A stretch of DNA of 64,000 nt from NCBI RefSeq assembly GCF_023706045.1, contig NZ_BQYL01000001.1, forward strand, positions 2,276,001-2,340,000, read 5' to 3'. The notes below the pieces were generated by a model. It had not been told where the DNA came from, searched no databases, and was given only the letters and a program-made list of their open reading frames with translations. Position numbers and translations under genes: made by a program. Shown here piece by piece: positions 1-8,906 of this stretch (within the stretch, counting starts at the first letter, position 1; each line of letters opens with the position of its first letter). This stretch comes from Kangiella sp. TOML190. GTDB lineage: Bacteria > Pseudomonadota > Gammaproteobacteria > Enterobacterales > Kangiellaceae.

Positions 1-506
1 TTTAGCGATTGGCGAACTGGCATCACATGTTTAACACCTTGATGATAATCCGGCGCAAATAAAAAGCAAAAGTTGGTGGCATCGAGTAAATCTTTGCTCT
101 GCTGGGGCGTTAAATGGGTATTGATGTTTAGAGCTTGCATTAAGTCAGAAGAACCGCATTTTGAAGAAACTGAACGATTACCATGCTTAACAAGCTTGAT
201 ACCTAAACTGGATGCGACAAAAGCCACTAAAGTTGACACATTAATGGTGTTAAGACCATCGCCACCAGTTCCGCAGCAATCGCTAACCAAGTAGTCTCTT
301 TGCGGAAATGCAACCGCCTGACGCCGTAATGCCTTTGCTGCGCCCGCAATTTCATCTACCGATTCTCCTTTGGTCTTAAGGGCTGCTAGCATTGCAGCAA
401 CTTGGGGCACTTCTAGTTGACCTGTCAATAACTGATCAAAAGAGCTAGTCGCTTGCTGTAGACTAAGATCTTGACCTTGATATAAAGTTTCAAGCAACTG
501 CAGCAT
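1..506 (-). CDS. trpD: Anthranilate phosphoribosyltransferase, N-terminal part (gene runs off the window)
   Basis: TrpD transfers the phosphoribosyl group of PRPP to anthranilate, the second committed step of tryptophan synthesis. Reading from the ATG at 506 gives about 168 residues containing the family signatures in order: the PRPP-binding Gly-rich loop CGTGGDG around residue 80, the KHGNRS segment, and the FLFAPDYH...K substrate region near the window edge. The start overlaps the last 17 bases of trpG, which indicates translational coupling in the aroF-trpE-trpG-trpD operon. The C-terminal half lies outside the window. The identification is firm; the gene appears intact as far as it is visible. 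Confidence 0.95.
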   Translation of the reverse strand, partial: MLQLLETLYQGQDLSLQQATSSFDQLLTGQLEVPQVAAMLAALKTKGESVDEIAGAAKALRRQAVAFPQRDYLVSDCCGTGGDGLNTINVSTLVAFVASSLGIKLVKHGNRSVSSKCGSSDLMQALNINTHLTPQQSKDLLDATNFCFLFAPDYHQGVKHVMPVRQSL

Positions 507-1122
507 GGCTAGCTCCCGATTGATTCTGGTGTTTGTTAGTAGTCATCACCTGATCTACAAAGTTCATTAACAGCTGTTTACCATCGCGGGTCATAATGCT
601 TTCTGGATGAAACTGCAAACCATAAACAGGATAATTCTTGTGCGAAACAGCCATAACTTCATCATCATCGGCTACCGCATCAACATTCAAAGCAGCAGGC
701 AGCTTACAAGGCGACTTACCAGCTGAAAGCGAATGATAACGAGCAACAGAGATTGCATTATCGAATCCAGAAAACAATCCTTGAGCTTGGTGATTCAATT
801 TGGATACTTTGCCATGAACCACTTGCTCAGCATGTTCAATTTTTCCACCGAAGGCTTCGACTATCGCCTGATGACCTAGGCAAATACCCAACATGGGTTT
901 ATGAGGATAAAACTCTTTAATCAAACGCATGCTATGTCCCGCGTTTGATGGCGCACCAGGGCCAGGGGAGATCACTAGTGCATCTACTTCTTTAATCAAG
1001 GCTACCAATTGCATATATTCAAGATCGTTTCTAACGATAGTTACATGGTGCCCTAATGATTGAAATTCATAAGCTAAGTTATAAAGGAAAGAGTCGTAGT
1101 TATCGATAATTACAAGTTTCAC
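490..1122 (-). CDS. trpG: Anthranilate synthase glutamine amidotransferase subunit
   Basis: TrpG hydrolyses glutamine and passes ammonia to TrpE to make anthranilate from chorismate. The protein has the class I amidotransferase signature: IDNYDSFLYN at the N terminus, the nucleophile Cys in GICLGHQ, and the HPES catalytic His/Glu near residue 180. I choose the GTG at 1120-1122 as the start because it follows an AGGAGG ribosome site by four bases and forms a GTGA overlap with the trpE stop. An upstream ATG at 1158 would add 12 non-conserved residues and lies inside trpE. Length is then 210 residues, typical of a free-standing subunit. The same protein can also serve PabB for folate synthesis in some bacteria; this is not testable here. 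Confidence 0.95.
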   Translation of the reverse strand: MKLVIIDNYDSFLYNLAYEFQSLGHHVTIVRNDLEYMQLVALIKEVDALVISPGPGAPSNAGHSMRLIKEFYPHKPMLGICLGHQAIVEAFGGKIEHAEQVVHGKVSKLNHQAQGLFSGFDNAISVARYHSLSAGKSPCKLPAALNVDAVADDDEVMAVSHKNYPVYGLQFHPESIMTRDGKQLLMNFVDQVMTTNKHQNQSGASHAAVA

Positions 1123-2699
1123 GCGACCTCCTTTTGCTTTGATTCCATTGGAATACAAGCATTAATTACAGGCAAAGCTTTATGGTACGTTTCAGCACAT
1201 TCCTTTTTGGGACACGAATCATAAACAATGCCAGCTCCAGCGCTGATTGTAGCAACATCATTGCAGACATAAGCAGAGCGTATAACAATAGCGCTATCAA
1301 ATTCTTGATTGGCATTAAAGACACAAACTGCACCGCCATAATAACCGCGAGCGGACTGCTCCAATTGGCGGATAATTTCGTTAGCCTTGATCTTAGGCGC
1401 TCCGGTTAAAGTACCCATATTGGCGCAAGCTCGGTAGGCGTCAAACATATCAAAATCTCGGCTAAGCTGCGCTTTAACTTCGGACACTAAGTGCATAACG
1501 TGCGAGTATTTGACTACAGCTTTGAGTTGGGTCACTTTTCTTGTACCACTTTTGGCAATTCGCGCAATATCGTTACGCGCTAAATCCACCAACATCATAT
1601 GCTCGGCAACTTCTTTTTCATCACTAACCAGCTCATACTCGATCCGAGAATCTTCTTCACTATCGATACCCTTAGCAGTAAAAGCTCTTTTACGTGTTCC
1701 CGCGATCGGGTATAGACTTATCTCTTGATTAGCATCCACTTTTAGAGCACTTTCAGGACTTGCGCCTAGTAAGGTCCCTTGCTCAAACTGAATATAAAAC
1801 ATATAGGGACTAGGGTTCGATTGACGTAACTTGCCATAAGCTAGAAAAGGATCTTCGCAAGCCACTTGATAATTTCTCGATAGGACCACTTGAAATGCAT
1901 CGCCATCAATAATTCGTTGTTTGGCTTTTTCTACTTTTTTAGCAAACTCCTGATCGGAAAGCGAGACGGTAACTAGCTCCGAATCTTGATCAGACTTTGC
2001 ACTAACCAAGTTATCAAATTTAAAATTATGCTTATTGTCGCTAATTTGTTCTACAAGCCTGTGTTGCATCTGCTCTAATGCAACGCCTAGCCGGATCTTG
2101 TTTTTTGCGTTACTTCCAAAACCTTTGCAAATGAGCTTTGCAGATTGATTGTCTAAACTTTGAATTAATAGCTGATCAGCCACATAAAAACAAAAGTCAT
2201 CCGTAAGCTTTTCTACCACAGGCAAGCTTTCGAATTGATCCACTAGATCAAAGCTACAGGCGCCAATTAAATTGGTCGATTGGTTATCTTCACGATTCTC
2301 CGCTTCACACTGTCGAGCTAAAAATTTCAAAATCGTCAAACTTGAAACAGACTTTAATCGCTCGAGCTCTTCAATGGACGTTGTTATTGATTTTAGCGTT
2401 AATGCAATGCTTTTTTGTTGGCGATTAATATCAAAATCCGCAGCAATTGTCTCTAGCTCTAAGTCCGCTAGCAAACTTTCTCCATTATCATTTAACGCTT
2501 CAATAGTGATTTCCGAGTTACGAGCACTGACTCTAGCCGCTGCAGAAATCATTAATAAAGATTTGGGGTTATGGTGAGTTCCCGCCTCTGCAGTTTCTAG
2601 CAAAGCCGTATGTGTGCTATTGCCGCCAGTTAACCTATAAAATGCTTGGTATGGCGACAAACTTAAGGGCAATTTTTTACTTAACGTTGTAACTTGCAT
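1119..2699 (-). CDS. trpE: Anthranilate synthase component I
   Basis: TrpE converts chorismate plus ammonia to anthranilate. The 526-residue protein has the N-terminal regulatory half with an LLETAEAG segment, which corresponds to the LLES tryptophan-feedback element of characterised TrpE proteins. The C-terminal chorismate-binding half contains GDAFQVVLSR, PSPYMFY, the IAGTRKR segment, HMMLVDLARND and GTLTGAPK. Catalytic architecture is complete. Its stop overlaps the trpG start by four bases, and it follows aroF after eight bases, so all are one transcript controlled by the attenuators upstream of aroF. PabB and isochorismate synthases are alternatives, but the LLET element and trpG/trpD context settle it. 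Confidence 0.97.
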   Translation of the reverse strand: MQVTTLSKKLPLSLSPYQAFYRLTGGNSTHTALLETAEAGTHHNPKSLLMISAAARVSARNSEITIEALNDNGESLLADLELETIAADFDINRQQKSIALTLKSITTSIEELERLKSVSSLTILKFLARQCEAENREDNQSTNLIGACSFDLVDQFESLPVVEKLTDDFCFYVADQLLIQSLDNQSAKLICKGFGSNAKNKIRLGVALEQMQHRLVEQISDNKHNFKFDNLVSAKSDQDSELVTVSLSDQEFAKKVEKAKQRIIDGDAFQVVLSRNYQVACEDPFLAYGKLRQSNPSPYMFYIQFEQGTLLGASPESALKVDANQEISLYPIAGTRKRAFTAKGIDSEEDSRIEYELVSDEKEVAEHMMLVDLARNDIARIAKSGTRKVTQLKAVVKYSHVMHLVSEVKAQLSRDFDMFDAYRACANMGTLTGAPKIKANEIIRQLEQSARGYYGGAVCVFNANQEFDSAIVIRSAYVCNDVATISAGAGIVYDSCPKKECAETYHKALPVINACIPMESKQKEVA

Positions 2700-2707
2700 T
2701 TTAAGAC

Positions 2708-3730
2708 CTACTGCAGTTCTAGTTTTCGCCCACTGGCATGAATAAAGGGTGCTAATTGCTGAACAAGCTCTGAAAAATCGCTTGGCGATAAGGCTTGAGC
2801 AGCATCGGATACCGATTCTTTCGGCTCTCTATGACACTCAATGATTAGCCCATCGGCTCCGCAAGCTACTGCAGCTTTAGCCATTGGAGCAACTAAAGTT
2901 CTTACGCCAGTGCCATGAGATGGATCGACAATCACTGGCAAGTGGCTCTTTTCTTTAATAAATGCCACCGCATTTAAATCTAAAGTATTACGAGTGGCAG
3001 TTTCAAACGTTCGAATCCCACGCTCACAAATCATAACGTTTGGATTGCCTGTCGCTACTATGTACTCTGCCGCTAATAGCAACTCTTCTATGGTCGCCGA
3101 CAAACCGCGCTTCAATAAAACCGGCTTATTAGTTTCTCCAACCGCTTTGAGTAACGAGTAATTTTGCATATTGCGCGCTCCAATTTGGATAGCAGAGGTA
3201 TAATTAGCGACATCATCCAGATCTTTGATATCCATTAACTCCGTTATAGTATCCAGACCAACTTCTTTGCCCACCGATTGCATGATCTTTAAACCTTCAA
3301 CCCCAAGCCCTTGGAACGAATAAGGGCTAGTACGTGGTTTAAAGGCACCTCCTCTTAACACGCTGGCACCGGCGGCTTTAACGTATCTCGCCGTTTCTAA
3401 TAACTGATCTTCACTTTCGATCGCACAGGGCCCGCCCATAAGCGTAAATTGATCGGAACCCACTGGAGTGTCTCCAAGATTGATTACCGTATCTTGCGGG
3501 TATATTTCACGACTGACCAGTTTGTATTTAGTCAACACCGGTTTGATAAGGTCCACTTGCGGGTGATTCTCAAGATGAAGCGCTTGCAAAACTCGCTCAT
3601 CACCCAAAGCCCCAATAACGGTTCGTTCGACTCCTGGCATATGTAAAGGCTTGAGTCCTGACTGCTCGATGCGATTTAAGATCTCTTGCGCATCACTTTC
3701 CGATGAGTCGGCTTTTAAAATAATAATCAT
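2708..3730 (-). CDS. aroF: 3-deoxy-7-phosphoheptulonate synthase, type I-beta, first gene of the trp operon
   Basis: This enzyme condenses phosphoenolpyruvate and erythrose 4-phosphate to DAHP, the entry step of the shikimate pathway. It is the short type I-beta form with an N-terminal ferredoxin-like regulatory domain (residues 1-70) like the Thermotoga enzyme, then the barrel with GGPCAIES, LRGGAFKPRTSPYSFQGLG, the DPSHGTG metal/substrate motif and ECHREP. Length is 340 residues, normal for this class. It is the first structural gene after two tryptophan attenuators, so its expression should follow tryptophan supply. A second DAHP synthase of the other class (type I-alpha) lies beside pheA at 50280, so the cell has divided this step between branches. 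Which effector binds the N-terminal domain cannot be told from sequence. Confidence 0.93.
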   Translation of the reverse strand: MIIILKADSSESDAQEILNRIEQSGLKPLHMPGVERTVIGALGDERVLQALHLENHPQVDLIKPVLTKYKLVSREIYPQDTVINLGDTPVGSDQFTLMGGPCAIESEDQLLETARYVKAAGASVLRGGAFKPRTSPYSFQGLGVEGLKIMQSVGKEVGLDTITELMDIKDLDDVANYTSAIQIGARNMQNYSLLKAVGETNKPVLLKRGLSATIEELLLAAEYIVATGNPNVMICERGIRTFETATRNTLDLNAVAFIKEKSHLPVIVDPSHGTGVRTLVAPMAKAAVACGADGLIIECHREPKESVSDAAQALSPSDFSELVQQLAPFIHASGRKLELQ

Positions 3731-3782
3731 ATTGCTACCTGTTTATATTCCTAATTGCTATGCTTTTAAAAACTTGGGACAT

Positions 3783-3813
3783 AAAAAAACCCGCTGGTGA
3801 TAGTGACAGCGGG
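3783..3813 (-). terminator. trp attenuator 2 (intrinsic terminator with alternative antiterminator)
   Basis: On the minus strand the transcript has a 7-bp stem (CCCGCTG / CAGCGGG, loop about 10 nt) followed at once by seven U. The 5' arm can instead pair, with one bulged base, to GCGGCTTT at about 3848-3855, inside the last codons of leader peptide 2. This is the mutually exclusive 2:3 versus 3:4 arrangement expected of a ribosome-controlled attenuator. It lies between leader 2 and aroF. Confidence 0.85.
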
Positions 3814-3840
3814 CTTTTGTATGTGAATAACTGATAACTC

Positions 3841-3918
3841 TCAGACACAAAGCCGCCGTAACCAGTTCCACCACCAGTTTTGAGCCATGTTTTGTACCAA
3901 TTGAGTTATTCGTTTCAT
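3841..3918 (-). CDS. trpL: trp leader peptide 2 (25 residues, four Trp codons)
   Basis: The ORF ATG at 3918 to TGA at 3841 encodes a 25-residue peptide with the run NWWWNW: three consecutive Trp codons, one Asn codon, then a fourth Trp codon. It is placed directly before attenuator 2, and its final codons (L-R-R-L-C-V) overlap the proposed antiterminator arm, which is the classical geometry of trpL. The ribosome site is weak (GAACGAAG about 5-12 bases upstream). It is the second of two such leader peptides in series. Ribosome stalling here at low charged tRNA-Trp should favour readthrough into aroF-trpEGD. Confidence 0.88.
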   Translation of the reverse strand: MKRITQLVQNMAQNWWWNWLRRLCV

Positions 3919-3952
3919 ACTACTTCGTTCGATTCTAATTAATTCTAGCCAT

Positions 3953-3976
3953 AAAAAAAGCCCGCTGATGCGAGCT
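3953..3976 (-). terminator. trp attenuator 1 (intrinsic terminator with alternative antiterminator)
   Basis: Minus-strand transcript: stem AGCTCGC / GCGGGCT with a 4-nt loop (ATCA), one G-U pair, followed by a run of U (the A-run at 3953-3959 on the plus strand). The 5' arm plus one more base, AAGCTCGC, can pair over 8 bp with GCGGGCTT at 4016-4023, just after the stop codon of leader peptide 1. That is a clear terminator/antiterminator switch. It shares its A-run and CCCGCTG sequence with attenuator 2, consistent with origin by duplication. Confidence 0.85.
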
Positions 3977-4026
3977 TCTTGTTTATCTATTTGTCTATTT
4001 CAGATAAATGCAACTAAGCCCGCTAC

Positions 4027-4074
4027 TTAAGTAACGTGCCACCACCAACTTTTAAATGCATTTAATCTTTTCAT
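4027..4074 (-). CDS. trpL: trp leader peptide 1 (15 residues, three Trp codons)
   Basis: ATG at 4074 to TAA at 4027 encodes MKRLNAFKSWWWHVT. Three consecutive Trp codons precede the stop, and the first attenuator follows. Like leader 2 it begins Met-Lys-Arg. No Shine-Dalgarno sequence is visible upstream. The predicted promoter at 4081-4109 would start transcription at about 4074, the A of this ATG, so the peptide may be made from a leaderless transcript. The promoter geometry supporting this is seen; leaderless translation itself is inference. Confidence 0.85.
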   Translation of the reverse strand: MKRLNAFKSWWWHVT

Positions 4075-4080
4075 GAGGCT

Positions 4081-4109
4081 AAAGTAATCCAATCTCGAAA
4101 CGCGGTCAA
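4081..4109 (-). promoter_or_regulatory. Sigma-70 promoter of the trp operon
   Basis: Minus strand: TTGACC (4104-4109), a 17-bp spacer, then TACTTT (4081-4086). The position downstream of the parA-like stop and directly upstream of trpL1 fits the operon promoter. The expected start site, about 7 nt past the -10, is at the trpL1 ATG. I found no sequence resembling a TrpR operator (CTAG-type palindrome) over it. Confidence 0.65.
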
Positions 4110-4123
4110 GCAATAAATCATAT

Positions 4124-4834
4124 TTATTTTGTTTTAGCGAATTTATCGACCTGTGCTTCGGTTTTAATGCGGTGATTACCTTGTTTATCTAAAAGACGCT
4201 GAATGCCGGATGTTAAGGACCAAATTTCTATTTTTGCGGCCTGATCGTGCCACTCAGCCACCGTTAAACCTTGAGCAAAAGAGTCCAAATAAGCCACACG
4301 ATTACCAAGCTTGGCGGGCAAATCTTCTATTTTTAGCACTTTCTTAGCTTCATCCACTACCGCCTCGGCCGAATTGGTTCTAACCCGATAGCGATTCCAG
4401 CAAATGCGCGTTTCTAGGTTTGGATTTATGGCTTTTGCTTCTTCAATAATTTCCGCCAAGTGTTTAGTCGACCAAACCTCAACTTGCGATGGACTTAAGG
4501 GGATCAAGGCTAAATCAGAAAGCATTACAACCGCTCGGGTTAGATTGGTAATTCTGGGGTGGCCGTCAATTAGAATGTAATCGTAGGTATCCAGATTATC
4601 GCGAACCATTTTTTGCAGTTGTGATAAATTTTTAGCGACTGCTATATCGAGGTTTTCGATAACATACTTATCGTTGCGAATTTGATACCAGGTATCGAGC
4701 GAACTTTGCGGGAAGTCCGTATCAATCATCAACACATTAGACTGATCGGAAAGTGTTGATGCAATATTAGCACATAAGGTTGTCTTTCCTGCCCCGCCTT
4801 TCATTTGGACAAAACTCACAATTTTTGCACGCAC
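4124..4834 (-). CDS. ParA/MinD-family ATPase, orphan
   Basis: A 236-residue deviant Walker-A ATPase: KGGAGKTT at residues 12-19, the A' motif MIDTDFPQSS near residue 36, and a Walker B-like YILIDGHPR near residue 86. Family members position plasmids, chromosomes, chemoreceptor arrays or other cargo on the nucleoid. There is no ParB, parS-like repeat or cargo gene next to it, so its cargo is unknown. The start is GTG at 4834 with a purine-rich GGGGAG upstream. The second residue of the usual ParA signature dipeptide (Asp-Gly-Asp-Pro/Asp-Thr-Asp-Pro-Gln) is altered to Asp-Thr-Asp-Phe-Pro-Gln, as in several short stand-alone ParA proteins. It is separate from the trp operon, which has its own promoter. 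Confidence 0.8.
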   Translation of the reverse strand: MRAKIVSFVQMKGGAGKTTLCANIASTLSDQSNVLMIDTDFPQSSLDTWYQIRNDKYVIENLDIAVAKNLSQLQKMVRDNLDTYDYILIDGHPRITNLTRAVVMLSDLALIPLSPSQVEVWSTKHLAEIIEEAKAINPNLETRICWNRYRVRTNSAEAVVDEAKKVLKIEDLPAKLGNRVAYLDSFAQGLTVAEWHDQAAKIEIWSLTSGIQRLLDKQGNHRIKTEAQVDKFAKTK

Positions 4835-4939
4835 CCTCTACTCCCCAATATTTTTTTAACTTAGGATTTAATTCTACCTAACCTTAAAAAATTGGCAAGC
4901 CATCATCAGCTTAACAAGTGTAAACCACTGATTTACAAT

Positions 4940-4963
4940 AAAAAAAGCTCCCGAAGGAGCTTT
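4940..4963 (-). terminator. Intrinsic terminator of the pilus cluster
   Basis: Minus strand: AGCTCC, a TTCG tetraloop, GGAGCT, then about seven U. It lies 19 bases past the pilE stop and closes the fimU-pilVWXY1E transcription unit. On the plus strand only a short T run follows. Confidence 0.85.
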
Positions 4964-4981
4964 GATAGTCGTTATGGTTAG

Positions 4982-5407
4982 TTAACAGGTTGATCCTGAT
5001 TCAGGCCAGCATCCATTGTTGGTTTTTGTCCAATTCTTTGCTCCTGACTGATTTATAGTCAAACTACCATCACTTGCGGGCTGAGATCCGGTTGGCGTAG
5101 CCGTTAACGTGTAAGTTGTTGCAGTAACATTGTCCACTCCAATATTGTAGTAAGCCGCTCCCCCCTCTACTGGAACTTGGCTAGGTATATCGGCATTGGT
5201 TAAACCTTGGTAACTAAAATTGTTATTGGCTTTATACCGTTCGGCAGCTTGAACTGCACTCATAAGCGCCGCCATCGCATCACCACGTTTAGTTCGAATA
5301 ACATAGTTTTGATAAGATGGGATGGCTATTGCAGCCAAAATAGCTACAACAACAACTACAATCAAAACTTCTACTAAAGTAAAACCAGCTTTATACTTCT
5401 TCATCAT
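4982..5407 (-). CDS. pilE: Type IV pilin-like protein PilE
   Basis: A 141-residue type IV prepilin: short basic leader, prepilin peptidase site G/FTLVE with Glu at +5, and a long hydrophobic N-terminal helix ending AIPSYQNYVIRTKR. The small globular domain ends in a Cys-rich tail (GCWPESGSTC) that can form the usual C-terminal disulfide loop. In Pseudomonas the gene at this position is the minor pilin PilE, which joins the PilVWX/FimU/PilY1 initiation complex to the major pilin. Gene order here is the same, so minor pilin is the better reading than major subunit. It follows pilY1 by five bases. Confidence 0.88.
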   Translation of the reverse strand: MMKKYKAGFTLVEVLIVVVVVAILAAIAIPSYQNYVIRTKRGDAMAALMSAVQAAERYKANNNFSYQGLTNADIPSQVPVEGGAAYYNIGVDNVTATTYTLTATPTGSQPASDGSLTINQSGAKNWTKTNNGCWPESGSTC

Positions 5408-5412
5408 AAACC

Positions 5413-8325
5413 CTATTCAGTTGTTTCACGCCATTTAGCAGTTTTAGTCTGTAGCAAGTCATCTAAGTCTACAGGAATAGTGCCTATTAAGAACTCACCA
5501 TCGTAGAAAGTGCTGCCGTCAGGTTTAACACCAGTTTGAATAACACCTAACAAACCATCAACAATTGAGCCTAAAGCAGTATCCATAGATCTGTCAAGAG
5601 AAGTAACAACACCATCATTATCAAAGAAGTTATCAACAATTGGGGTCGAGTCTGCAATTTTCATACCGTAAATTCTGTTTAACCCTGTAGGCGGTGTACA
5701 TACATCCGCACTTTGTTGCGGCGTGTAGGTTGTAAAGAATGTTCTTCCATTAAAGGTAGTTGAGTCAGACAAGATTTTTTCATTTAGATCAAGTGTTATA
5801 TACCAGCCCTTATCTCCATCAGCAAATAGCTCCTGTTGAGTTTTAAAGTTGCTAGATGTTGGATCCGTATTGTTATTTAGATCAGTACTATTAATAGTGG
5901 TGGTAAATGTTTTCGTTGCAATCGACTCATCATAAACTAAATGAAACCTATCGGTTGTGCCCGTATCCAAAGGATGCGCTCGGTATCCGCTACCAATCCC
6001 TATCATTGCAAAGATTTTCCCATCAAAACTATCAAAAACTATATCAGGTCTATTATAAAAACGATTGTTACCGCTAAACCCACTTAAATCAGCGACCTTA
6101 CCAGATTTAAAGTCAGAAGCACTACCGCTAAGAGGCATATCTACACGGTAGATTTTTCCTGAGATATCGGATATGTAGGCAGTGTCCAGAAACTCATCAT
6201 TATTACTATCGATAAAGGTGATGTCAGCAGGAACACTCGAATCTATAAAATTATTTAAAGAGGAAATATCTTTACCGAAGTCCTCGCCACTTCTCCACTG
6301 GAGAATATGGAAACTGTTACCTTTTTGGCCACCAGAAGTAGACTGATAGGTATAATCATCATTACGATCATCATAGCCCCCTCCAAACATAACTACTCTT
6401 CTGTTGCCATTATATTTTAAGCGTCCCACTACAGGCTTTGACCAAGTTTGTCCAAGGTTAGGAATTTCAGTTATACGCTCATTATTATAAAATAAAGGAA
6501 CGTTCGCAGCATCAACACCATCATTACCTATATCATCTCTAACAGTAAAGCGCATAATTGGCGCACCCGCCTTACTTACATCAAGAGCATAATAACGGTT
6601 TCCGCCTCGGCGCTCTCCAATATAGAGCATAGCTATGTCATTGTCAGGATTAGGTAATGCATCTACTGAATTATTTTTATTTCTATCTCGGATATAAACA
6701 GTGATATCACCGTCTAAGCCATAATCACGAAGATCTGGCGAAGATAAATCATAATTATTTTTCCAGTTCTTAACATTTTTAAACATTTGTCTTGGCATGA
6801 AAGACCAACGTAAATTACCTGTGCTAGGGTTTATCGCATGTAAGTAGCCTTGATTTGTGCCTACAAATACCGTTCTTTTATTAGCGTCATAATTTAAAAC
6901 CGTTGGTCTAGAATGAAGAGGATCACCAAATCGATTTATGGTTACATCTTCTTCAGAAGGTTCTATATTCCCGTTATTATTTAAATCATAATCAGTAACG
7001 ATTTGCTTTTCTGCTATCCATTTAAAATATTCTTTCGCTTCTGCCCTAGTGGTTCCAGTTCCAAATAATTCTTCAATTTGCGCATCAGATAACTGTGCTT
7101 CAAGCGCTTCATTAATTACATTTTTTGGGTTAGTGCTTAAGCCATTTGAAAATAAGTTTGAATAGACTAGGCCGCTATCATCAGATCTTGGGCCAGCCCC
7201 GCCATAAATAACATTATTACCATCTGTAGCTCCCCAGGCACTTGTTGCAGTATCTAAAAACTCACCTGTAGTTTGATCCACAGCAGGGCCACCAACATTA
7301 TCAGGTTGGGCCGTATCTTCTGATCGAATTTCACCCTCTTTAATATAATATTTCTTTAAATTACCTGCCCAAACATTACTCGCGGAAGGGCGATACATGG
7401 CTAGAAAAACCTCATTGCCATTGGTTAAACGATTACTCTGACTAATCGGAACGCTTGGTGCAACAAAACCCGCTGATTCAGTATCGGTATCAATTGCAGA
7501 CTGTAAGGCATCGATTAAACTCTGGGTATCATTAGCGGTGTTATAAGTACCGCCACCACGATTTTCAGCCATATCTTGTAGCCAACTGCTCGCGTTAGTA
7601 TCAAACAACGCTAGTGCAATTGTGCTTACCGCAATAGTAGACTGTGTATTGCCTGCCACCTGAGGCGTAGTAGAAATATATTCGGCCAAGTCTGACATAC
7701 AAGCTCGACCTGAGTTTGCGGTTGAACAATCATCAGGGACGCCATCATAGGCTCGAATGCCGTCTCTAACTGTGTCATTGAAACGTGTAGGCTGGCCATC
7801 AGTAATCAACACCATATTGTTCTTTAAGCTACAATTAGCTGTAATTGGGCTGGTAAAACCTGGTAAATCACCTCGAAAGTAGCGTGTTGCATCGTACATA
7901 GCACGACCTGTAGGCGTCGAACCAGCACCATCCAAGGCATTAATTTCAGTAATCAATCTTTGTCTTTGAGTCTCTCCTCCACCTAAGTCAAAGTCTAAGG
8001 CTCTCACTTCTTCGAGAATAACAGCAGTATCGCCACTATTAAAGCGCATGGCCCCGACCCTAGTGTTGTCCGGTAAACTATTTAAGAAGGCTGTAGTAGC
8101 CGCTTGTAAAACTTCCATTCGACTATCTTCGGCTGCAGTCGGATTTTGGTTATCCGCATAGGTTACCCAATCCATTGAGCCTGAGCGATCCAGTACCAAC
8201 ATAATATTTTGAGGCGTTGTTTGGCCGAAAAAAATCTCTGTGTCATCGCTTAAAACAGGTGCAGCCATAAAGACTCCTGTTAGCAATGACGTTATGAATA
8301 CTTTTAAAAAACTTGATAATTTCAT
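5413..8325 (-). CDS. pilY1: Type IV pilus tip adhesin / assembly protein PilY1
   Basis: A 970-residue secreted protein with an N-terminal signal peptide (about residues 1-26), then a von Willebrand A domain with a complete MIDAS start, D46-x-S48-x-S50. The C-terminal half is the PilY1 beta-propeller. It contains a calcium-loop-like segment YDLNNNGNIEPSEED and the FVGTNQGYLHAINPSTG blade that is characteristic of the family. Known PilY1 proteins cap the pilus with the minor pilins, bind surfaces and take part in mechanosensing; calcium binding in the propeller regulates twitching in Pseudomonas. It is smaller than the Pseudomonas protein (about 1160 residues), mainly through shorter linker regions. 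Cotranscribed with pilX and pilE. Confidence 0.93.
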   Translation of the reverse strand: MKLSSFLKVFITSLLTGVFMAAPVLSDDTEIFFGQTTPQNIMLVLDRSGSMDWVTYADNQNPTAAEDSRMEVLQAATTAFLNSLPDNTRVGAMRFNSGDTAVILEEVRALDFDLGGGETQRQRLITEINALDGAGSTPTGRAMYDATRYFRGDLPGFTSPITANCSLKNNMVLITDGQPTRFNDTVRDGIRAYDGVPDDCSTANSGRACMSDLAEYISTTPQVAGNTQSTIAVSTIALALFDTNASSWLQDMAENRGGGTYNTANDTQSLIDALQSAIDTDTESAGFVAPSVPISQSNRLTNGNEVFLAMYRPSASNVWAGNLKKYYIKEGEIRSEDTAQPDNVGGPAVDQTTGEFLDTATSAWGATDGNNVIYGGAGPRSDDSGLVYSNLFSNGLSTNPKNVINEALEAQLSDAQIEELFGTGTTRAEAKEYFKWIAEKQIVTDYDLNNNGNIEPSEEDVTINRFGDPLHSRPTVLNYDANKRTVFVGTNQGYLHAINPSTGNLRWSFMPRQMFKNVKNWKNNYDLSSPDLRDYGLDGDITVYIRDRNKNNSVDALPNPDNDIAMLYIGERRGGNRYYALDVSKAGAPIMRFTVRDDIGNDGVDAANVPLFYNNERITEIPNLGQTWSKPVVGRLKYNGNRRVVMFGGGYDDRNDDYTYQSTSGGQKGNSFHILQWRSGEDFGKDISSLNNFIDSSVPADITFIDSNNDEFLDTAYISDISGKIYRVDMPLSGSASDFKSGKVADLSGFSGNNRFYNRPDIVFDSFDGKIFAMIGIGSGYRAHPLDTGTTDRFHLVYDESIATKTFTTTINSTDLNNNTDPTSSNFKTQQELFADGDKGWYITLDLNEKILSDSTTFNGRTFFTTYTPQQSADVCTPPTGLNRIYGMKIADSTPIVDNFFDNDGVVTSLDRSMDTALGSIVDGLLGVIQTGVKPDGSTFYDGEFLIGTIPVDLDDLLQTKTAKWRETTE

Positions 8326-8351
8326 AATCTGTTCCTTAATATTTTATCCGG

Positions 8352-8906
8352 TTATAAACAAGAGGCTAGAGGAGTAGTAGCCCATTGGTTAATGTTTGTT
8401 TTGGAGTCATCGGCTGAATCTACACCATCATTGTCGTAATCTAGAAACCCAGTTCCAACTAATTCAACAGCATGACATTTAATCCCTGCACCAGCTCCTG
8501 CAGAATAACCTTGACAGAGACTTGCATCCGCACATCCACGATAGAAAGTTCTCGTATAAGCCGAAATACCAGACTCAAAACTTGTGGTACATGTTGCCAA
8601 TGGCTTACCTTGACCATCAATACATGTTTTGTAACCTGTATTATGGTTCCTAAAATTGTTATTAGTATTAGTAACTACGGCGATAGCATTATTCCAAACC
8701 ACAATATCTTCTCTTAAACTACCAAGAACCGCATTGTTTGCACTTTGCGCCGCATGGAAAGTAACACTCTTTTCTTGGATATTAATCGCCTGTTTTTCGG
8801 AGAGAATCCCTGAGCGCATAATTGCTAAACCAACGACGGTAAGTGCAACAAAAAGCAGCATTGTCATCAACAAAGAAAAACCTTTTTGGTTAGACATCAT
8901 ATTCAT
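8352..8906 (-). CDS. pilX: Minor pilin PilX
   Basis: A 184-residue protein beginning with a prepilin-like leader (MNMMSNQKG/FSLLM) and a long hydrophobic helix. The Glu normally found at position +5 of the mature protein is replaced by Met, a feature known for the related GspK-type pseudopilins that sit at the very tip. PilX-like proteins have the same leader followed by an alpha-helix of the form GLAIMRSGILSEKQA. Four or more Cys lie in the C-terminal domain. Its position between pilW and pilY1 supports the name; sequence alone would only say minor pilin. Confidence 0.85.
   Translation of the reverse strand: MNMMSNQKGFSLLMTMLLFVALTVVGLAIMRSGILSEKQAINIQEKSVTFHAAQSANNAVLGSLREDIVVWNNAIAVVTNTNNNFRNHNTGYKTCIDGQGKPLATCTTSFESGISAYTRTFYRGCADASLCQGYSAGAGAGIKCHAVELVGTGFLDYDNDGVDSADDSKTNINQWATTPLASCL

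Follow-up and report, generated by a model that had tools for sequence, protein, structure and literature searches.

In E. coli, attenuation of the trp operon works alongside repression: one treatment of the system puts basal read-through at the attenuator at 10-15%, next to about 70-fold control by TrpR (Elf and Ehrenberg, PMC1183508), and an account of E. coli without TrpR describes attenuation alone as lowering burst size in a graded way, with saturation at medium tryptophan (PMC13178558). The tandem terminators at rimP, so far as their description goes, are another serial arrangement in the literature. Our literature search recovered no tandem Trp leader-peptide attenuators, an earlier description still being possible, and in two papers that use the words "tandem Trp" these refer to adjacent codons or residues. 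The locus described here shares with E. coli-type trpL (Rfam RF00513) a leader ORF carrying a Trp-codon run, a 2:3 antiterminator opposed to a 3:4 terminator, and trp genes downstream, but it differs in that two such units lie in series, both score below the Rfam cut-off, TrpR was not found, unit 1 is probably leaderless, and a DAHP synthase gene comes first. The initial annotation had proposed that a single operon is preceded by a serial pair of tryptophan attenuators, and this is supported; no TrpR that could act at the promoter was found.

The window, by which we mean the whole 64-kb stretch of DNA analysed, carries all of these elements on the minus strand. The upstream neighbour of the leaders is a ParA-like gene ending at 4124 (its best NCBIfam match, ParA_partition, is under the cut-off), and between it and the start of the DAHP (3-deoxy-7-phosphoheptulonate) synthase gene at 3730 lie two ORFs with Trp runs, each with a strong hairpin and a T-run. 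DAHP synthase is the first structural gene (2708-3730; NCBIfam NF006421, 478 bits, and TIGR01361, 378 bits), and is followed by trpE, encoding anthranilate synthase component I (1119-2699; NCBIfam NF010079, 578 bits), and by trpG (490-1158), with trpD, trpC-F, trpB, trpA, aroA and aroC belonging to the same operon past the window edge. The whole Trp branch is thus found in one operon together with DAHP synthase, EPSP synthase (aroA) and chorismate synthase (aroC) (window 490-3730; 1308-8506 in the related locus L043), and because aroA, aroC and DAHP synthase are included, tryptophan control of this operon may touch the common aromatic pathway too. In two related loci, CCAGGGATGGACTGTATG-type repeats are present between the last terminator and DAHP synthase (L034 and L037, with several copies in L037).

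The putative promoter (4081-4109) has a -35 hexamer TTGACC at 4109-4104 and a -10 hexamer TACTTT at 4086-4081, separated by a 17 nt spacer, and the ATG of leader 1 is just 6 nt beyond the -10 box. Leader peptide 1, MKRLNAFKSWWWHVT, is encoded at 4074-4027, and in the minimum free energy (MFE) fold a 1:2 hairpin (CGTTAC/GTAGCG, 4021-4036) overlaps its last codons and stop; the same hairpin was also read by eye, though not counted, in other members of the genus. Region 2 of attenuator 1, AGCGGGCTTA (4015-4024), pairs with region 3 as antiterminator, and intrinsic terminator 1, made up of regions 3 and 4 and a T-run at 3959-3953, spans about 3953-3980. Leader peptide 2, MKRITQLVQNMAQNWWWNWLRRLCV, is encoded at 3918-3841, with region 2 of attenuator 2, ACGGCGGCTTTG (3848-3859), located within its 3' end, and with intrinsic terminator 2 of the same composition at about 3783-3820 (T-run 3789-3783). 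The coordinates initially given for both leader ORFs are right, and so is the claim that each is followed by a terminator, as the two hairpins have z-scores of -6.6 (terminator 1) and -7.4 (terminator 2) and none of 200 shuffles is equally stable. An antiterminator pairing is likewise recovered by MFE folding in both units, with the correction that the pairs number 9 and 12, where 8 and 8 with a bulge had been counted. The MFE structure of each window unit holds the 2:3 antiterminator, by small margins, when the ribosome is placed at the first Trp codon before the last arm of the terminator has been made.

Both units therefore have the parts of a trpL-type attenuator: a Trp-run ORF before trp genes, an intrinsic terminator, and a competing antiterminator. 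When both strands of the window were scanned for a short ORF with WW or WxW and a strong terminator no more than 150 nt downstream, these two places were the only ones found, and none was found in 10 locally shuffled windows; a genome-wide pattern search with a variable gap matched unit 1 and one other place. A simple consensus scanner reported neither promoter nor terminator between 3500 and 4500, because these elements fall outside its thresholds and loop limit. No Rfam family matched anywhere in the window at gathering thresholds, but at E-values up to 10 the Trp_leader model matches each unit on its own, in the sense orientation and over its full length (model positions 1-100 of 100), at 3952-4053 for attenuator 1 (34.5 bits, E 2.3e-5) and 3781-3882 for attenuator 2 (23.2 bits, E 0.022), both below the RF00513 gathering cut-off of 41 bits. 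Of 17 relatives examined at E-values up to 1, all have at least one sense-strand match and eight have two; the cut-off is exceeded by one match (L028, 53.8 bits) and, as printed, equalled by a second (L010, 41 bits), with one additional antisense match in L003 left out of the count. No T-box was matched at gathering thresholds in the window, nor among the 19 matches at E-values up to 10 between 3700 and 4200. Leader 1 is too short for the Pfam and NCBIfam scan, and the leader-peptide models of these collections gave no family for leader 2; as a positive case beside it, the single leader of a locus in family f21 (L194) matches Pfam PF08056 Trp_leader2 with 63.6 bits.

We consider it very probable that the two units act as serial, ribosome-mediated tryptophan attenuators on one transcript, lowering basal read-through and multiplying the range of control in place of the missing repressor. 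RNA polymerase would start at the start codon of leader 1 or a few bases from it. With charged Trp-tRNA plentiful, the ribosome would reach the end of the leader and cover region 2, so that the 3:4 terminator forms; with charged Trp-tRNA scarce, it would stall on the Trp run and leave region 2 free to pair with region 3, allowing read-through. About 140 nt further on the polymerase would face the same test at unit 2, and only transcripts that pass both units would extend into the structural genes (DAHP synthase, trp and aro). Because the read-through fractions would multiply, basal expression is predicted to fall while the range and the log-sensitivity rise. When basal read-through is set to 11% in a toy race model with assumed rates, the range is 9 with one attenuator and 81 with two, and the log-sensitivities sum, such that a multiplied dynamic range is expected on arithmetic grounds. 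A more elaborate version, to which we give a rather low probability, is that the pair goes beyond redundancy and is a two-step check with different inputs, in which scarcity of Trp-tRNA is sampled twice, a few seconds apart, by leaderless and by Shine-Dalgarno-poor initiation, and which would act as a proofreading AND gate that filters out brief dips and reports on the state of the initiation machinery.

To see how widely the arrangement occurs, relatives with DAHP synthase were sought in 61 genomes of the genus, family and order, in 394 of the order and in 369 of the class, and three further genomes of the order were taken from named records. The classifiable set consists of 60 DAHP-synthase-led operons of the order with enough upstream sequence; outside it are one with a broken gene start (G029) and three at contig ends (G031, G048 and G397). 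Two units, each with a Trp leader and a terminator, are present in 44 of the 60 and one unit in the other 16, and the tandem loci span five families. Both units are found in all 20 genomes of the genus and in 14 of 16 judgeable members of the rest of the family (three more are not judgeable); outside the family, tandem loci belong to f4 (1), f13 (1), f14 (3) and f15 (5). The Trp run of leader 1 is WW or WWW in 20/20 genus genomes. Leader 2 is down to a single Trp codon in two of the 44 tandem loci (G020 and G022), in the genus its length ranges between 18 and 34 residues, and its sequence drifts outside the Trp run across the 44 loci.

The 16 single-unit loci are those of two members of the family (G025 and G035), three f6 genomes, one f23 genome, Salinivibrio, Enterovibrio, Ferrimonas, five f7 genomes and two f25 genomes, and in the seven loci of f7 and f25 there is a second Trp-rich ORF from which the terminator is absent. 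The proposal had been said in advance to fail if close relatives lacked one of the leaders: no such loss occurs in the genus, whereas G035 and G025, which are more distant members of the family, keep only one unit. On the DAHP synthase tree these two are nested inside the family, so unit losses do happen, and the unit left in G035 looks by eye like unit 2 of its neighbour G032. On the same tree the tandem label requires four changes, against a mean of 14.3 for shuffled labels. As a contrast we used 53 trpE-led operon starts from 52 genomes of the same order (G143 contributing two), picked from 223 of 247 genomes with a match, of which 47 have one unit, one has two and five have none detected. 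The double version had been called unusual, and this is so for trpE-led operons (1/53), but in the lineage studied here the double version is the rule. In the one tandem case among the trpE-led loci (L209 of G263, family f7), the paired Trp leaders, each with its terminator, lie immediately upstream of trpE.

Beyond the order, 105 loci (29 from 49 matching genomes of the class, and 76 named) were scanned for ORFs containing WW, not for terminators. Such ORFs occur in 13 of the 105, most of them high-GC frames without context, and no tandem pair was seen, the scan not being built to be exhaustive. By eye, three loci of family f145 in another order of the class (L147, L149 and L154) have a single Trp-run leader and a hairpin before DAHP synthase and look like true attenuators; their ATG lies close behind a TTGAC promoter, giving them a leaderless appearance. 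A Trp leader is also visible by eye in L144 and L145.

The terminator-less second ORFs have features of their own. In f7, a second short ORF follows the single attenuator both in DAHP-synthase-led loci (L126, L137, L138, L140 and L141) and in trpE-led loci (L204 and L207), with the nearly invariant peptide M-L-x-x-K-V-K-S-W-F-(I/M)-W-W-L-(Q/L)-P-(I/L)-Y-A-G. Over all pairs of five sequences there are 61 synonymous and 12 non-synonymous codon differences, where about 20% of single-base changes would be synonymous by chance; this count leaves out L204 and L207, whose stops differ. The ORF could encode a conserved arrest or coupling peptide. In f25 (L128 and L139) a short ORF beginning MKPMKLTWRWR occupies the same position after the single attenuator, again with no terminator.

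The 44 tandem loci were used to examine the geometry of the units. The distance from the first Trp codon to the start of region 2 is 13-34 nt in 88/88 units, with medians of 20 nt (unit 1) and 19.5 nt (unit 2), and a ribosome on the first Trp codon leaves region 2 free in every one of them (44/44 for each unit); on the last Trp of the run, it leaves region 2 free in 44 (unit 1) and 37 (unit 2) of 44. Before region 4 has been made, the MFE structure contains the antiterminator in 43/44 units 1 and 40/44 units 2. With the ribosome at the stop codon the terminator forms in 44/44 (unit 1) and 43/43 (unit 2), and region 2 is covered, given the assumed footprint, in 35/44 and 31/44. Compared with shuffled windows at p up to 0.05, the antiterminator stands out in 39/44 units 1 and in only 21/44 units 2, the values for the window being p 0.03 (unit 1) and 0.07 (unit 2).

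Covariation is seen in both pairings. Paired double changes in the 2:3 antiterminator number 19 cells against 9.3 in shuffled columns (unit 1) and 24 against 8.8 (unit 2), and in the 3:4 terminator 29 against 8.7 and 26 against 6.1, in each case exceeding all 1000 column shuffles, although these counts are inflated by kinship of the sequences. When positions with a double change are counted instead, the terminators are above most shuffles (reached by 1 and 27 of 1000 for units 1 and 2), the antiterminators are not above shuffles (reached by 549 and 389), and the number of pair types exceeds shuffles for neither pairing in either unit. Five of the 88 units were skipped, and these include both window units, in which the core triplets are missing (CCC in unit 1, and GGG of region 2 in unit 2).

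We then considered whether only one attenuator is functional and the other a remnant, which might be leader 2, for want of a Shine-Dalgarno, or else the unit that two members of the family have lost. The initiation signals of leader 2 are indeed weak: over the 44 loci the median anti-Shine-Dalgarno duplex energy of leader 2 is -2.7 kcal/mol, between those of leader 1 (-0.4) and DAHP synthase (-5.9), and in the window leader 2 has no recognisable Shine-Dalgarno (+0.1 kcal/mol), making its translation the weakest link; the duplex of -3.1 upstream of leader 1 in the window is formed by a stretch that is the promoter. The single-unit genomes G035 and G025 within the family also agree with a dispensable unit. 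However, the Trp run, the spacing of region 2, the antiterminator and the terminator are kept in both units over 44 loci, weaker cases aside, while the rest of leader 2 drifts around them. We therefore regard a remnant as quite improbable. Translation of both leaders, and termination in vivo that responds to tryptophan, are inferred.

Serial action further depends on the two units lying on one transcript. A TTGAC motif, 16-18 nt, and a -10-like box with an ATG 6-8 nt further are found at 36/44 tandem loci, including 20/20 in the genus; of the remaining eight, five have the ATG at 34-37 nt (four of these being f15) and three have no such promoter. Transcription usually starts about seven bases past the -10 box, and leader 1 is therefore probably translated from a leaderless transcript. 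If leader 2 had its own promoter, the units would act in parallel, with two start sites of which one is filtered twice and the other once. Scored against the consensus, none of the 34 segments between the units with room for a promoter beats shuffles, and 10 of the 44 have no room; the distance from T-run 1 to the ATG of leader 2 is 0-82 nt (median 39.5), being below 36 nt in 19/44. Consensus scoring of this type would miss weak or activated promoters, but together with the promoter positioned 6-8 nt before leader 1 in 36/44 loci, these findings make parallel units highly improbable. A second promoter between the units is thus unsupported, and since the gap is also often too short to hold one, the series arrangement is the best reading.

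The probable leaderless start of leader 1 bears on another alternative, that the leaders chiefly yield trans-acting RNAs or peptides such as rnTrpL and peTrpL of Sinorhizobium meliloti, with the terminators forming their 3' ends. As far as the source describes it, S. meliloti rnTrpL has the ATG of trpL at its 5' end and is trans-acting (PMC7298713), and leader 1 looks leaderless too. Leader 2 varies over the range of lengths given above within the genus and in sequence outside its Trp run, which fits a role in cis, and so we hold a chiefly trans function to be very improbable, although a trans role may be added to the cis role. The suggestion that region 4 of unit 1, freed in the read-through RNA, helps antitermination at unit 2 by pairing with its region 3 deserves only the slightest credence, as this cross-duplex is stronger in the window (-17.8) than the 2:3 pairing of unit 2 itself (-13.2) but same-genome pairing (-13.8) is no better than that between genomes (-13.7), with 1740/5000 permutations as stable, and thus gives no sign of selection.

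Serial attenuation on one transcript remains our preferred reading, and a duplication had been suggested as its origin. A shared MKR start does not serve as a mark of this, as MKR begins leader 2 in 1/44 tandem loci, the present one, and leader 1 in 4/44, so that its sharing is put down to chance, and the likeness of the terminators falls away as a mark too, being common to the whole group. The similarity of attenuators 1 and 2 (z 7.6 in the window) is no higher than that between different genus genomes (z 7.7), and attenuator 1 compared with attenuator 1 between genera gives z 7.5; there is consequently no sign of a recent copy, and recent duplication of one unit is not supported. An ancient duplication of a unit of about 100 nt is possible.

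Why two units should be present may relate to the repressor. No TrpR gene was found in this genome, the control genomes E. coli and B. subtilis being positive, and none scores over the cut-off in the 44 tandem genomes, some of which are incomplete; one fragment below cut-off is present in G015. Among single-attenuator genomes TrpR is absent in 34/59. Single-unit relatives with TrpR include G065, G380 and G395, and among the DAHP-synthase-led operons all three single-unit f6 genomes have it. Counted by genome, TrpR is present in 0/45 tandem (G263 included) versus 25/59 single (p 5e-8), with the five trpE-led genomes in which no unit was detected, four of them having TrpR, placed in neither group. 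Counted by family, with families sorted by hand, the figures are 0/5 versus 6/15 (Fisher p 0.26). Since genomes are not independent and the family-level difference is not significant, we regard an association between tandem units and loss of TrpR across the order as no more than suggestive.

An organism without TrpR must reduce leak by other means, among which serial attenuators are a direct choice. Attenuation stacked serially for one amino acid, and kept where no TrpR was found, is in effect a natural test of how a range of control can be built without a repressor, and natural comparisons are at hand in the single-unit genomes G035 and G025, the trpE-led tandem genome G263, and the genomes with a single unit and TrpR (G065, G380 and G395). 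Among the attenuators seen here, those of f145 are similar in having a Trp leader and hairpin before DAHP synthase and an ATG near a TTGAC promoter, but have one unit only in the stretch read. S. meliloti and Streptomyces lividans belong to other bacterial groups than this genome. Both have leaderless trpL, with the Trp leader ORF at the 5' end of the transcript as is probable for leader 1, but a tandem pair is absent from the description in those sources (PMC7298713, PMC8079986). Salmonella mgtCBR resembles the present locus in placing two serial leader ORFs, mgtM and mgtP, on one transcript; as described there, however, its leaders sense ATP and proline respectively and its stem-loops are unlike intrinsic terminators (PMC3641672), whereas here both leaders have Trp runs and both are followed by intrinsic terminators. 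The probable leaderless state of leader 1 and the apparent lack of a second promoter between the units are additions to what the initial annotation had noted. In a T-box, tRNA is bound by the RNA itself. The tandem Trp T-boxes of Bacillota trp operons, reported in that source only from Bacillota (PMC12452182), follow the same logic of repeated tRNA-Trp sensors in series, and the locus described here is a parallel to them in which the sensor is different, being a ribosome on a leader ORF.
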